This document shows positions 2,613 to 18,925 of a stretch of DNA of 22,914 bases, one piece after another. A program made the translations under genes and the position numbers. The notes below the pieces were generated by a model. The model ran no database searches, had not been told where the DNA came from, and saw nothing but the letters and a program-made list of their open reading frames with translations. The number at the start of each line of letters is the position of its first letter. The stretch's first letter is position 1. Source of the DNA: a virus; IMG/VR virus record IMGVR_UViG_3300037485_000560, positions 1-22,914 of that record; one strand, written 5' to 3'.

Positions 2613-2909
2613 TTAAAATTGATTTGCAAAAATTCGCCCACTACTTAATGTAATGCTACTTATATAACAATTATCTTTAAGTATAATTGCAGGGTCGCCT
2701 GCTTTTAATGTGCCATAAAAATAAGGTGTTAATAAAAAATTAACCGCATTTCCATTAGCATCAGAGCCACTACAAACTGTTAAAGTTGAGTCTGCCGTTG
2801 CTTGTATAGAGGTAACTATTAATCCTGTTCTTGCCGTTACATCTGCAATTATTATAGTTCCACCACTAACTGACATTTTTTGGTCTGGTGTTGTTGTTAT
2901 TTTATCCAT
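2613..2909 (-). CDS. Small beta-rich protein between the two adhesins, unknown
   Basis: The product has 98 residues and is rich in Thr, Ser, Val and Ile with alternating hydrophobic residues, typical of an all-beta virion protein. It has no signal peptide or membrane segment and carries two cysteines only (about 46 and 81). It sits between the two glycine-rich paralogues, separated by 28 and 13 bases. Position suggests a fibre or tail-tip component, or a chaperone-like partner for an adhesin. No family is recognised. Confidence 0.45.
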   Translation of the reverse strand: MDKITTTPDQKMSVSGGTIIIADVTARTGLIVTSIQATADSTLTVCSGSDANGNAVNFLLTPYFYGTLKAGDPAIILKDNCYISSITLSSGRIFANQF

Positions 2910-2921
2910 TGTTTTTTATTT

Positions 2922-2958
2922 ATTATTGAAATTTATATCTTATTATTACTATGCCAGA
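2922..2958. repeat. Direct repeat copy B at the 3' end of adhesin gene 2
   Basis: This is the second copy of the 37-base repeat at 1744-1780, differing at two positions. It covers the final codons and stop of the second glycine-rich gene. The two copies are in the same orientation about 1.18 kb apart, so recombination between them would remove one adhesin and the small gene between them. Confidence 0.8.
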
Positions 2959-3795
2959 TGCACCATTACCTCCTTTTGCCGTTCCTGCTCTTTCAGCACC
3001 ACCACCTCCACCACCTGTGTTTGTAGTGCCATTCATTGCATCTGCTGAACTACCATCGCCACCACCACCTATGCCACCTAATCCATAATTTAAAGGTGCT
3101 AAATAAATAGAGCCACCGCCACCGCCTCCATAATAAGCACCTGTTCCACCACTTATTAATGATAAACTACCTGCGCCTCCATTACCCCCAAATGTTCCTG
3201 TTCCATTACTACCAACTGCACCTGCTCCACCACCGCCACCGCTACCATAATATGGTCCAGTATTTGAGCCATTGCCTCCATTATTACCTTGCCCTGCCGT
3301 TCCATTTGCTCCTATTATTGATATACTACCATTATGAGGTGCGCCCGTTCCACCACCACCACTGCCACCACTTGCAGCGTTTTCTTGATGAGCACCCCCA
3401 CCTCCACCTCCAACAGACGTTATTGCATTAAAAGATGAGGTTGTACCAACTCCTGCGGGTTGGTTATATGTGCTAACTCCTGCACCACCACTACCAACAA
3501 CAACCGAATAAGTTTGTAATAAAATAGCTAAACCTGTGTTTGTTCTTAATCCTCCTGCTCCACCACCTGCTCCTGTTATGCCTCCATTACCACCGCCACC
3601 ACCTGCTACTACTAAGTATTCGACTACATTGTTTGGAGCAGTTCCCAAAGTGGTAACTACAAAATTATTGCTTGAATTAAAAGTGTGTACTTTGTAATCG
3701 CCATCGGTAGTAATAGTGCCACCTGTGGCAACTGTAAACGCTGCTCCACCACCACCACTACTTGCACTACTTTGAACAACTCCGTTTAAAATCAT
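2923..3795 (-). CDS. Glycine-rich receptor-binding/tail-tip adhesin candidate (paralogue 2)
   Basis: The product has 290 residues. The block at about residues 19-66 (GGTITTDGDYKVHTF, then PNNVVEYLVVAGGGG) is almost identical to the block in the paralogue at 1745-2584. A glycine-rich body with many Gly runs follows and ends GASGIVIIRYKFQ. The similarity also holds at the DNA level (about 3602-3727 against 2377-2502), while the central loops between Gly runs differ. That is the expected pattern for two adhesins sharing a scaffold and differing in specificity loops. The gene follows the anchor-type fibre gene at 3797-4240 with one base between them. Function is inferred from composition and position. 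Confidence 0.65.
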   Translation of the reverse strand: MILNGVVQSSASSGGGGAAFTVATGGTITTDGDYKVHTFNSSNNFVVTTLGTAPNNVVEYLVVAGGGGGNGGITGAGGGAGGLRTNTGLAILLQTYSVVVGSGGAGVSTYNQPAGVGTTSSFNAITSVGGGGGGAHQENAASGGSGGGGTGAPHNGSISIIGANGTAGQGNNGGNGSNTGPYYGSGGGGGAGAVGSNGTGTFGGNGGAGSLSLISGGTGAYYGGGGGGSIYLAPLNYGLGGIGGGGDGSSADAMNGTTNTGGGGGGAERAGTAKGGNGASGIVIIRYKFQ

Positions 3796-13453: not shown

Positions 13454-13636
13454 ATGGATTATAAAATATATAAAAATTTAGACCATCAAATTGATAAAAA
13501 AAATAAATTCAAAATACGAGTTTCTACTTATATACAAGGCGAGTTAAAAAATAAATTTATGCAATCGTGTATAAATAAAAAAATATGTGAGGCTGATTTT
13601 TTGAGAGAAATTATTTCCACACATTTTAAAAAGTAG
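13454..13636 (+). CDS. Ribbon-helix-helix-like small DNA-binding protein
   Basis: The product has 60 residues from ATG 13454 (an in-frame TTG lies just before). Residues about 18-58 fit the ribbon-helix-helix plan: a beta strand FKIRVSTYI, a helix GELKNKFMQSCINKK, a turn, and a second helix ADFLREIISTHF. The protein is basic, as Arc/MetJ-type repressors often are. It is the only gene on the plus strand. It diverges from the protease gene and converges on the I-like gene with an 11-base overlap of the 3' ends. A near-palindrome lies 37-60 bases upstream of its start. A role as local repressor of late transcription or as an autoregulated inserted gene is inferred. Confidence 0.6.
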   Translation: MDYKIYKNLDHQIDKKNKFKIRVSTYIQGELKNKFMQSCINKKICEADFLREIISTHFKK

Positions 13637-14207
13637 ACACGTTGTCTTGATAACCTGCTATTGTATATTTTCTTGTAAAATTAAGCACTCTGTTTTGCCT
13701 CTCTACATTATTTGCTCCTAATGAATTAAACAATGCTAATGGTACTTTTGCTGCACACGTTATTGACGTTGCTCCCGTAGGCACAATTTGAAAATAAATA
13801 TAAGGTGGTGCGGTAACTTTAAAATGTTTATTAATTGCGTGTTCTAAAATAATTATTTGAGAATTATATTTTACCCTTTCATTTAATCCAATATAAGTAT
13901 CTAAAATTTTTCTCCAATTAGTTGCACTTAATGATGAGCCTGTTGGCAGCACACCAACGCTTGACGTTACTCTTAATTCATAAACTCCATTGTCTGTCCA
14001 CGTTATTCTTTGATATTTATAATAGGTAGTTGCATTGTTATAAGAATTATAAACAACTCCATCAAAATAATCTTTTAATAATAAATCGCAAATATATTTT
14101 AAAGGTGTTAATAATACTCTTAGCCACGCTATCTGTTTTGGCTTTCTTAATACTGATGGCAATAATTCCTCACTTGCCCTAAATGGATTAAATACAAATA
14201 AACTCAT
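13626..14207 (-). CDS. Baseplate gpI-like protein with CBM5/12-like insert
   Basis: The product has 193 residues. The N-terminus is helical (PSVLRKPKQIAWLRVLLTPL). Residues about 53-99 (NSYNNATTYYKYQRITWTDN, then GVYELRVTSS, then LPTG and NWRKIL) follow the chitin-binding CBM5/12 pattern: a TY-x-x-G/Y-x-x-V strand, an aromatic Y-E strand, then P..W. The C-terminal part has YNSQIIILEHAINKHF and a beta domain. The gene directly follows the J-like gene with a shared base, as gpI follows gpJ in P2/Mu-type baseplates, which is the main reason for the call. The insert could bind glycans or simply decorate the baseplate. Confidence 0.5.
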   Translation of the reverse strand: MSLFVFNPFRASEELLPSVLRKPKQIAWLRVLLTPLKYICDLLLKDYFDGVVYNSYNNATTYYKYQRITWTDNGVYELRVTSSVGVLPTGSSLSATNWRKILDTYIGLNERVKYNSQIIILEHAINKHFKVTAPPYIYFQIVPTGATSITCAAKVPLALFNSLGANNVERQNRVLNFTRKYTIAGYQDNVSTF

Positions 14208-15603: not shown

Positions 15604-16056
15604 TTATCTTTTTAAATTTAATTCTTTTTTTAATCTATTGTCAATCCTTGTTTGTAATTTTTTATCTAATATTTTACTATCTCCCATAAATTTTCTTTTA
15701 GGCATTTTGAATGGGTATTTACCAAAAGCTAATCCCATTAATCCCTCATTATGTATTTTAGCATATATCTTTGTGCTCCAAACAACAACGTTCCATTCAT
15801 TTCTTGTTAATCTGCCTGCGTGATGCATAGAATTTTTTAACGCTCCCGTTTGAGTTAAAATTTTTCTATTCGCATAACGTTTTCTTGCTCTCTTTAATGG
15901 TTTCCATCTTTTAAAAGGCAAATCATTAAATCCCTCTTTATCAAATGATTGTTTAAAATGTTTTACTGACATTTCCCCAATCTCAGTCTTTAAGCCTTTT
16001 AAAGTTCTTTTTAATTTTTCTTTATCTAATTGTAATTTGTAGGCTTGTGACTTCAC
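15604..16056 (-). CDS. Virion morphogenesis protein (Mu gpG-like)
   Basis: The product has 150 residues and is very basic. It shows the phage virion morphogenesis family pattern: FKQSFDKEGFNDLPFKRWKP, KILTQTGALKNSMH, WSTKIYAKIHNEGLMG and a C-terminal PKRKFMGDSKILDKKL. In Mu this protein (gpG) acts in head-tail joining and is encoded next to gpF, as here. It overlaps the MuF C-terminal gene by four bases (ATGA). Role: tail-to-head connection or tail completion. Confidence 0.75.
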   Translation of the reverse strand: MKSQAYKLQLDKEKLKRTLKGLKTEIGEMSVKHFKQSFDKEGFNDLPFKRWKPLKRARKRYANRKILTQTGALKNSMHHAGRLTRNEWNVVVWSTKIYAKIHNEGLMGLAFGKYPFKMPKRKFMGDSKILDKKLQTRIDNRLKKELNLKR

Positions 16057-16409
16057 GGCTTAGGTAAGTTAAAATTTTTCTTTGCTAATTTAATATCTTT
16101 TTTATCCACTTTAAAATAAGGATGCTTTTTACTAAAAACTTTTTTTTCTTTTGCTGCATTAAATCTAAATATATCTGGGACTGATTTATGTAAATTTAAC
16201 CCTATTGTATTTGTTGAGGTTATACCACTTGACTCCAATTTTTCAACTCTGCACCTGCAATTCCAACCATTAGGAGGTAAATAAGAATCCCAAAATTTGT
16301 CTTCTACTTTTTTAACAACGTAATCTAATAAAGCGTGTTGTGGTCTTACTTTATTATCTTTTTTTGTTATATATCTTAAAAACTTTTCTTGTTTTATGCC
16401 TTTAGCCAT
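16053..16409 (-). CDS. Mu F-like minor head protein, C-terminal half (split gene)
   Basis: The product has about 118 residues from ATG 16409. It contains the conserved end of the Mu F-like domain: FLRYITKKDNKVRPQHALLD, FWDSYLPPNGWNCRCRV, and a basic tail. The matching N-terminal half lies in the overlapping upstream frame (16402-16866), which stops at 16402. The frame is open to an ATG at 16478, but the extra 23 residues overlap the other half's coding sequence and do not look like the family. The ATG 16409 overlaps the upstream stop by eight bases (ATGGCTAA). Either this is a natural two-gene split, a frameshift mutation, or a +1 recoding site. Confidence 0.65.
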   Translation of the reverse strand: MAKGIKQEKFLRYITKKDNKVRPQHALLDYVVKKVEDKFWDSYLPPNGWNCRCRVEKLESSGITSTNTIGLNLHKSVPDIFRFNAAKEKKVFSKKHPYFKVDKKDIKLAKKNFNLPKP

Positions 16410-16866
16410 TATCCCAATTTTCAAATTCAATCCAATCTTTTGCGCCTCTTGCTTGATGTTCTGCACTATCACATTCAACAGTTAAATAATCTACATTATA
16501 TTTATTATATATTTTAACTCCCTCTATTATAAATTCACTTTTATTTTTTATAGTTTCAATAGTTATTAAATCTCTAATCTCTCTAACTAATTGATATTGT
16601 TTTGCTGCTGCAAATGCATAAACATTATTAATAAATCCATTTAATACCTCATACTCTCGACTTCCATTTTCTAACTCATCTAAAGTATTTCCAAATCCTA
16701 TCTCAACAAACTCAATTAATTTTTGAGCAATTTTTAAATATTGATTTTGGTCTAAATTTTCAATAGTTATTTCCCCATCAAATACTCTATTCACAAACTT
16801 TACAGCATCTGTGTCAAAAAATATATTTATTTGTGCTAAATTAGTTAATTGGCAATGGTGTATCAT
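16402..16866 (-). CDS. Mu F-like minor head protein, N-terminal half (split gene)
   Basis: The product has 154 residues. The helical N-terminal region resembles the start of Mu F-like head morphogenesis proteins, with NVYAFAAAKQYQLVREIRDL, FIIEGVKIYNKYNVDYLTVE and AEHQARGAKDWIEFE. The last pattern normally leads straight into (F/Y)LxYxTxxDxxVRxxH, and exactly that continuation occurs in the +1 frame from 16409. The start overlaps the portal gene by 26 bases, a common portal-MuF coupling. On its own the protein lacks the conserved VRxxH and PPNGWNCRC blocks. Confidence 0.6.
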   Translation of the reverse strand: MIHHCQLTNLAQINIFFDTDAVKFVNRVFDGEITIENLDQNQYLKIAQKLIEFVEIGFGNTLDELENGSREYEVLNGFINNVYAFAAAKQYQLVREIRDLITIETIKNKSEFIIEGVKIYNKYNVDYLTVECDSAEHQARGAKDWIEFENWDNG

Positions 16867-18070
16867 AATACTCGCTTAATGAATTTGAAACGCTTTTTAT
16901 ATTGCTTTCATTATTTACCTCTATTACATCGCTACCATAATTATTTTTAATATACTCTGGTGTGAATGTAAATTTACCTGTGTTAATTAACGCTAAATCA
17001 AAAGCACTCTTTTCATTTAAACTAAATTCGTTTTCGTTTTCAATGTCTATGTATAATCCCTCAAATCCAAATCCTAAAGCATTTAGCATTGGTATTAATT
17101 GATTATTATTTATATTGTATAATAGTTGTCTATCACTATAACCAACGTTGTCTAATACCCTTTCGTGTACTTCTGCTTGTGAACGGCTCGACCCGTTATC
17201 AGTTGTCATTGTTTGCCCTAAAATAAGTTTAGATATTTCTGAATTACATCTGTCAATCATTTTATCAAATACATTAAAAGCATCTGAACTGCTCGACTCT
17301 ACTAATTCTATAAGGTCATCTGATTTGAACAATCCCCAACTTGATGTGCCCATATTCTCTAACATATTTTGCATATTATTTACGCTATCTAAATCATTAG
17401 AGTTTGTTTTGCCAATTCGCATTGGACTGCCAAATTTTTCAATATATTCTGCCCACGCACCAATAGCATTTTTTTTCCAAATAACTAAAGGTGTTACTTT
17501 TAATAATAAACCTAAATCTCTTTTTTCTCCAACTCCTATGCACCAATTTGCATAAGGCAATTCTAAATAATCCACCCCCTCATACGTTGAGGTTGCCTCT
17601 GTTACAACGTGAGTTTCTGGTCTTACATATTGGCGAGGTACTAATTCAACTTCCTTAAATTCGTCCATACCATTTCTGTTTATTATGTCATCAAATTGTA
17701 TTAATGAATGCCCATAATAAATTGAGTCTAAAGCATAACCAATAAAATCTAAAAACCATTTTGATTTTAATATCTTTGATTTTTCTTCATTCTCGCTTTC
17801 ATCTTTGTTATATACGTTAAACTCTGATGAAAGTATTAAATTTTTTCTTTGTTGTATACAAGCAGAAACGTGAGCGTCCAAAATGGTTTGCTGATATAAT
17901 TGTAATAACCAAAATCTATTTGGGGTATATATATTTTCGGCTGTGTCTACTGCTGAACGAAATTTATTTAAATCAGTCGTTACCCTATATAATGGAGTGG
18001 GTATTTTAATTGTGTTTAAAATCCTCTCATTAGGTAATGCCTTTTGTATTTTGTTTTTTAAATTTTTCAT
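16841..18070 (-). CDS. Portal protein (DUF935, Mu gp29-like)
   Basis: The product has 409 residues. Hallmarks of DUF935 portals are FWLLQLYQQTILDAHVSACI followed by QQRKNLILSSEF near the N-terminus, YLELPYANW, SPMRIGKTNSNDLDSVNNMQ in the middle, and SKLILGQTMTTDNGSSRSQA followed by EVHERVLDN. The portal forms the dodecameric ring at the head vertex through which DNA is packaged. It directly follows the Mu gp36-like gene and overlaps the MuF N-terminal half by 26 bases, the usual order of Mu-type head genes. Confidence 0.85.
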   Translation of the reverse strand: MKNLKNKIQKALPNERILNTIKIPTPLYRVTTDLNKFRSAVDTAENIYTPNRFWLLQLYQQTILDAHVSACIQQRKNLILSSEFNVYNKDESENEEKSKILKSKWFLDFIGYALDSIYYGHSLIQFDDIINRNGMDEFKEVELVPRQYVRPETHVVTEATSTYEGVDYLELPYANWCIGVGEKRDLGLLLKVTPLVIWKKNAIGAWAEYIEKFGSPMRIGKTNSNDLDSVNNMQNMLENMGTSSWGLFKSDDLIELVESSSSDAFNVFDKMIDRCNSEISKLILGQTMTTDNGSSRSQAEVHERVLDNVGYSDRQLLYNINNNQLIPMLNALGFGFEGLYIDIENENEFSLNEKSAFDLALINTGKFTFTPEYIKNNYGSDVIEVNNESNIKSVSNSLSEYYDTPLPIN

Positions 18071-18925
18071 TTACCAAAGTTGATTGTGATTTGGGGTATA
18101 ATAATTTGCTGCGTTGCCATATCTAATGGACATCCCCTGCTCTGGTGTAAATACTGGCAAATCTGCGTTTATGTTTCCTTTTGATACCGACTTCAGCCAA
18201 CCAATTGCACCACCAGAGTCAGTGGGGCTGTTTCCATTATATCTCTCTTTTCTTAAATCGGGTATGTTACGAGGATTTATTCTTGAATGCAAATGATATA
18301 AAGTTACATCAATTAAAAATAAAACTATTTGTTGATTTCTATTATCGCCTACTGTCCAATAAGTTGTATTTGTTGGCAATTGCCCTGTTATACTAAATAA
18401 AATTGGTGTCCCCCAAAATTCTGTATTCAAAGGATTTATATTTTTACATTGCTTTATGCAAGTATATTTATAATTATTTTCATACCACACTATGTCCCCA
18501 ACTTGATAAGTTGCATTATAATCAAACTCTGGGTTTGGTAATGTTACATAAAATAAAGATTTATCTGCACAAATTAAATTCCATTCTGCTAATAAAAATG
18601 CGTGAGGTACTGACCCTGCTATTGATGAGTAAATAAATCCATTATATAAAACTCTGTTGTTTGTTACATAAGTTGTTAAAGGATTAAATGCAGTTTCTGT
18701 ATATTCAACTAAGTTTTTACCATAAAAAATGCCACCACTTGTGTAAAGAGATGTGTTACTAAAAATTTCACCTACTTTATATCTTTGTGAAAGGTAGCCA
18801 ATCATTTCTGCTTGTGCTGCCTGTTCAACATCAATTTTAATTTGTTGGTTTGACTCTATAATTTGTAGCAAATTATCCGCTTGAATAATTCTATTATAAT
18901 CTAAATCTCGTAATAAACGTGCCAT
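18071..18925 (-). CDS. Mu gp36-like (DUF1320) head-tail adaptor with inserted CBM-like modules
   Basis: The product has 284 residues, about twice the usual length of about 140 for DUF1320. The ends match the family: MARLLRDLDYNRIIQADNLL followed by EMIGYLSQRY at the start, and QQIVLFLIDVTLYHLHSRIN, PRNIPDLRKERY, AIGWLKSVSKGNINADLP at about 198-257. Between them about 110 residues are inserted, with two CBM5/12-like units: about 80-118 (FNPLTTYVTNNRVLYNGFIY, then EWNLI) and about 134-171 (FDYNATYQVGDIVWYENNYK, then PLNTEFW), plus a short LPTNTTYW piece. The adaptor sits under the portal; the inserts could project from the virion. Terminase lies just upstream. Confidence 0.65.
   Translation of the reverse strand: MARLLRDLDYNRIIQADNLLQIIESNQQIKIDVEQAAQAEMIGYLSQRYKVGEIFSNTSLYTSGGIFYGKNLVEYTETAFNPLTTYVTNNRVLYNGFIYSSIAGSVPHAFLLAEWNLICADKSLFYVTLPNPEFDYNATYQVGDIVWYENNYKYTCIKQCKNINPLNTEFWGTPILFSITGQLPTNTTYWTVGDNRNQQIVLFLIDVTLYHLHSRINPRNIPDLRKERYNGNSPTDSGGAIGWLKSVSKGNINADLPVFTPEQGMSIRYGNAANYYTPNHNQLW

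Follow-up and report, generated by a model that had tools for sequence, protein, structure and literature searches.

A MuF-like minor head protein apparently divided between two overlapping genes in a clade of phage contigs

Proteins of the MuF family, among them Mu gp30/F and SPP1 gp7, share the Pfam domain Phage_Mu_F (PF04233), and their function is poorly understood. SPP1 gp7 is described as a portal-binding protein present in few copies per capsid (PMC5576092, PMC6316719). Published rearrangements of the family, as described in three papers, are fusions with portal, protease or toxin/effector domains and not a cut (PMC7302621, PMC5512222, PMC5576092); in PMC5576092 and PMC5512222 the word 'split' occurs 0 times. 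No earlier report of a split MuF protein was found in the literature on MuF and minor head proteins, split genes, gene fission and frameshifts, most subscription papers being outside reach.

The window analysed here is the whole 22,914-bp virus record IMGVR_UViG_3300037485_000560. Genes with family matches on its minus strand follow a Mu-like head order of terminase large subunit, gp36-like adaptor, Mu-type portal, ORF1, ORF2, gpG-like neck and Clp-type protease. The portal gene (16841-18070; PF06074, E 3.9e-77) lies directly upstream of ORF1, and its 3' end overlaps the start of ORF1 by 26 nt. ORF1 (16402-16866), with an ATG start and a TAA stop, encodes 154 aa corresponding to the N-terminal, helical half of a MuF-like minor head protein. 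ORF2 (16053-16409), in the +1 frame relative to ORF1, encodes the C-terminal half, 118 aa from the ATG at 16409, with the conserved H..L, FW and PPNGWNCRC region, FLRYITKKDNKVRPQH and the signature NTIGLNLH. Its start overlaps the ORF1 stop by 8 nt (16402-16409), and its own stop overlaps by 4 nt the GTG start of the Phage_tail_S/gpG-like neck gene (15604-16056; PF05069, E 5e-10). An earlier note on this DNA had described a MuF-like protein running over two overlapping frames, with the stop at 16402 and, from an ATG overlapping it by 8 nt, a +1 continuation containing FLRYITKKDNKVRPQH and PPNGWNCRC; these coordinates are confirmed, and the same split recurs in 12 further contigs. The same note saw no homopolymer at the joint, which holds except for a three-G run just upstream that leaves the result unaffected.

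Several other features of the window may be recorded here. In the gp36-like adaptor (18071-18925, minus strand, 284 aa), Phage_Mu_Gp36 matches residues 198-257 (E 0.00026) and the carbohydrate-binding module CBM_5_12 matches residues 80-100 (E 0.0012), both below threshold; this head-tail adaptor may carry an inserted binding module. A protein encoded at 13626-14207 (minus strand), without a Pfam match, contains a stretch beginning YYKYQRITWTDNGVYEL that resembles a carbohydrate-binding module by eye. Two related glycine-rich proteins (1745-2584 and 2923-3795, minus strand), both matching Gly_rich_2 (E 2.2e-19 and 8.9e-20), are possibly a receptor-binding or tail-tip pair. In the alignment, read by eye, ORF1 of the window begins MIHHC, whereas most sister phages have a cysteine pair, MCxxC, at this point.

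The Pfam match to PF04233 in ORF2 scores 45.1 bits against a cut-off of 29.6 (E 2e-11) and covers positions 63-111 of 112 only, and ORF1 has no match to PF04233 of its own, such that the two halves of the domain do not occur in one protein. The homology of ORF1 to the family is established through PHROG 19194 and the relatives: in phrog_19194, ORF1 aligns at positions 35-145 and ORF2 at 152-253, as consecutive parts of one family, and ORF1 is homologous to the N-terminal part of the single-frame relatives. By tblastn, Flavobacterium phage FPSV-S1 and Winogradskyella phage Peternella_1 each carry the two halves next to one another within one gene, and in pippi8-1 the C-half was found by tblastn and both halves by profile search. 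The pair also adjoins the portal gene, the neighbour expected of the family. Judged from sequence, the MuF family is present here as a gene pair and not as one protein, cut inside its defining domain.

Structure prediction is consistent with this arrangement. The model of the single-frame homologue L020 (pLDDT 92.1, pTM 0.88) is helical to residue 155, with a helix at 114-155 followed by a loop at 156-161 and a strand at 162-167, and when L020 is aligned with the split pair the cut falls in that loop. The window pair was modelled as an artificial joined chain from an alignment that included 26 joined homologues, a model that says nothing on the binding of separate chains; it has a pLDDT of 91.2, with the lowest inner block (69) at the joint, a helix at 109-149 and a strand at 161-166, and ORF1 is helical in it. 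Its best BFVD matches are head-morphogenesis-domain proteins, the nearest being a 'Phage head morphogenesis domain containing protein' (TM 0.85). The cut is predicted to lie in a loop where the helical part gives way to the beta part, within the Pfam MuF domain. No relative was found among solved structures by profile search, Foldseek or VIA-align: the C-half profile gave a chance match only (E 0.99), and Foldseek against the PDB returned nothing at E 0.001 or better. The top rows from VIA-align, with Z no higher than 5.9, consisted of helical bundles and chains of ATP synthase, a resemblance that may reflect a common arrangement only.

Relatives were collected in five scans of viral contigs (IMG/VR), giving 102 distinct contigs, and were called split or single-frame by profile search of stop-to-stop frames, with three doubtful loci read individually. 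Twelve are split (L002-L013, from 12 other metagenomes), 86 are single-frame, including L031, L129 and L130, whose N-halves fall under threshold but which were scored single as the frame continues upstream, and 4 are broken elsewhere or truncated. Three cultured phages and L062, a contig from a genome, are single-frame as well; the split members are all metagenome contigs, none of them cultured. Metagenomes 3300045996 and 3300008450 each hold both forms, so the split does not track the data set. Independent splits were sought among the 86 single-frame contigs and in 395 genomes of the same phylum as the Bacteroidetes MAG to which L062 belongs, and none was found; the 24 matches in 22 of these genomes all lie in open frames of at least 198 aa. 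The four remaining contigs are interrupted away from the joint, L028 (2079-4128) and L127 (1467-3741) by frame breaks inside the N-half, and L014 and L096, truncated and from one metagenome, by breaks inside a half. These isolated breaks are probably errors or real inactivation, and L014 may belong to the split group. The closest relatives of the window are all split and the single-frame relatives are further away, and the comparison proposed in the earlier note, in which a single intact frame in close relatives would have spoken against the split, therefore leaves it standing. By these sequence comparisons the pair is real and conserved, a split form of a known protein and not an artefact.

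An 80-row tree (68 single-frame, 12 split) places all split rows in a single clade (100/99), requiring one change and nested among single-frame rows, which marks the event as a fission and the pair as not ancestral. This tree leaves out L013, whose joined halves are identical to those of L010, 14 single-frame loci whose matched segments are duplicates, the broken or truncated L014, L096, L028 and L127, L031, with its N-half under the profile threshold, and loci from L113 on. Trees of the separate halves, with 37 rows (25 hand-picked single-frame and 12 split), also recover one split clade in the N-half alone (96/92) and in the C-half alone (100/98). The downstream neck gene agrees: with L010, L065 and L069 removed from the 35 rows tried, 12 of the 32 rows are split and form one clade (100/99). 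The portal tree, built from the same 37 rows minus L068, L009 and L012, whose portals are partial, rejects a single split clade (p-AU 3.9e-6; 10 split of 34 rows). The portal of L003 groups with those of single-frame L070-L087, and the portals of single-frame L065 and L069 group with those of split L005-L011. This pattern suggested that the split pair might be a mobile cassette. Since the split rows stay together in the neck tree but not in the portal tree, however, the portal is more likely the exchanged gene. Phages with split MuF and phages with the unsplit protein seem to have traded portal genes, and the occurrence of related portals with either form would fit equal function of the two.

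The explanation that best accommodates these observations is that the two overlapping intact genes together encode a MuF-like minor head protein, very probably as two separate subunits that arose by fission and would re-form as a complex at the portal. Of the three readings offered in the earlier note, its true two-subunit version is the best supported, error, inactivation and recoding each being contradicted by the evidence.

The alternative that survives best is that head function resides in the C-half alone, the N-half now being a separate protein that serves another role and shares no complex with it. Rates of change bear on this. On a fixed topology for the same 37 rows, the N:C length ratio is 4.0 within the split clade, compared with 1.46 in the single-frame sisters and 1.62 elsewhere, and among branches over 0.05 the N-half exceeds the C-half in 12 of 12 within the clade versus 13 of 20 in the sisters and 17 of 22 elsewhere. 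On the stem branch alone the ratio is 0.72, the C-half having changed more. The motif NTIGLNLH, picked after viewing the alignment, is present in the C-halves of all 13 split members and in 0 of 68 unique single-frame homologues. An N-half that changes about four times as fast as its partner, and an invariant C-half motif absent from unsplit homologues, speak for a parting of roles, and the faster change may reflect a role of ORF1 that is relaxed or altered. Against such a parting, the N-half is still a neighbour of the C-half and co-inherited with it, retains the helical pattern predicted for the unsplit family, and is itself under purifying selection. For six pairs within L005-L013, with codons near the joint excluded, dN/dS is 0.085-0.211 in the N-half and 0.007-0.095 in the C-half; for five pairs with deeper members, making 11 in all, two could not be computed per half owing to saturation and the rest gave unreliable values of 0.19-0.51 (N) and 0.08-0.16 (C), those involving the window being unreliable through saturated synonymous sites. 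These ratios indicate that both halves are under purifying selection, and an N-half wholly divorced from its partner is improbable. The two halves probably came to evolve independently of each other, with the C-half acquiring something new at about the time of the fission.

A considerably weaker alternative is a programmed +1 (or -2) frameshift where the two ORFs meet, yielding a full-length fusion alone or beside a short form. Frameshifting is known in phage structural genes, and both frames are open together over 80 nt in the window and over 14-37 nt in 11 other members, such that a shift could join them. The ORFs themselves overlap in 12 of 13 members, by 8-37 nt. The frame relation, however, is not conserved: ten members, the window among them, have an offset of +1, and L002-L004 have an offset of +2; because the window is the sister of L002 in the 80-row tree, the relation has changed more than once. 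No -1 slippery heptamer (X_XXY_YYZ) occurs in the overlap of any of the 13 members, the ORF1 stop varies among TAA, TAG and TGA, and the codon before it varies as well (GGC, GCA, GAA, TCG, GAG, GTA), the +1 context having been judged by eye only. Neither a conserved frame relation nor a slippery site in the overlap, the two marks of a programmed frameshift, is thus seen. In L006 the halves do not overlap at all but lie 181 nt apart with a 62-codon ORF (2823-3011) between them. The variation in offset, the insert in L006 and the absence of a slippery heptamer together make recoding, which the earlier note had raised as a +1 site, very unlikely. The L006 insert ORF (plus strand) is bounded at both ends by a short direct repeat, noticed by eye, and has a weak match to the virion structural family PHROG 473 (E 0.00095), and no relative of it was found among the collected loci. 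An inactivating mutation, or a sequencing or assembly error, is scarcely credible: such breaks do occur in the family (L028, L127 and the pair L014/L096, all elsewhere in the protein), but the same joint is present in 12 other contigs from 12 metagenomes, two of these metagenomes also gave intact single-frame relatives, and inactivation is contradicted by the dN/dS of close members, which lies well below 1 in the N-half and the C-half alike.

Both halves persist intact as neighbours and are inherited together under purifying selection, and each of the 13 split members has an ATG at the joint. Separate translation of ORF1 and ORF2 is strongly indicated by the comparison of relatives. In the two-subunit model favoured here, a single fission of a MuF-like gene would have occurred in the common ancestor of a phage clade that is related to phages of Bacteroidota, at the loop between the long helix that ends ORF1 and the first beta strand of ORF2. 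The two proteins would be made separately from one message, translation of ORF2 probably being coupled to termination of ORF1 through the overlap, and the polypeptides would then bind each other non-covalently to give a MuF-like unit at the portal, within the head, a position from which unsplit relatives are believed to assist in starting infection. The complex and its place at the portal are proposed from accounts of SPP1 gp7 (PMC5576092, PMC6316719). A more speculative extension, for which the odds are long, is that the halves have separate jobs, a fast-changing helical portal-binding subunit staying in the head and a slowly changing, highly constrained C-subunit leaving with the DNA as a pilot or acting as an enzyme, held by a new docking motif around NTIGLNLH found in the split clade only. 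If this were true, the copy number and timing of the two subunits could be set independently.

Occurring naturally within the domain, the cut shows where one part of it ends and the next begins, and the split yields two pieces that could be expressed separately and tested for binding to portal and DNA. It is also a warning that gene callers and frameshift predictors should not automatically join or flag such pairs. Like frameshifted pairs such as those of tail assembly chaperones, the two overlapping frames here encode parts of one ancestral protein, but they do so without a conserved frame relation and without a -1 slippery heptamer. The Winoviridae homologues in FPSV-S1, pippi8-1 and Peternella_1 share the order of portal gene then MuF and are homologous over both halves, but have one gene in one frame and lack NTIGLNLH. 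With the MuF proteins typified by Mu gp30/F and SPP1 gp7 the pair has in common a C-half that matches PF04233, a location directly after a Mu-type portal gene and a single PHROG family extending over both halves; it differs from them in that the domain is cut near Pfam position 62 and carried by two genes.
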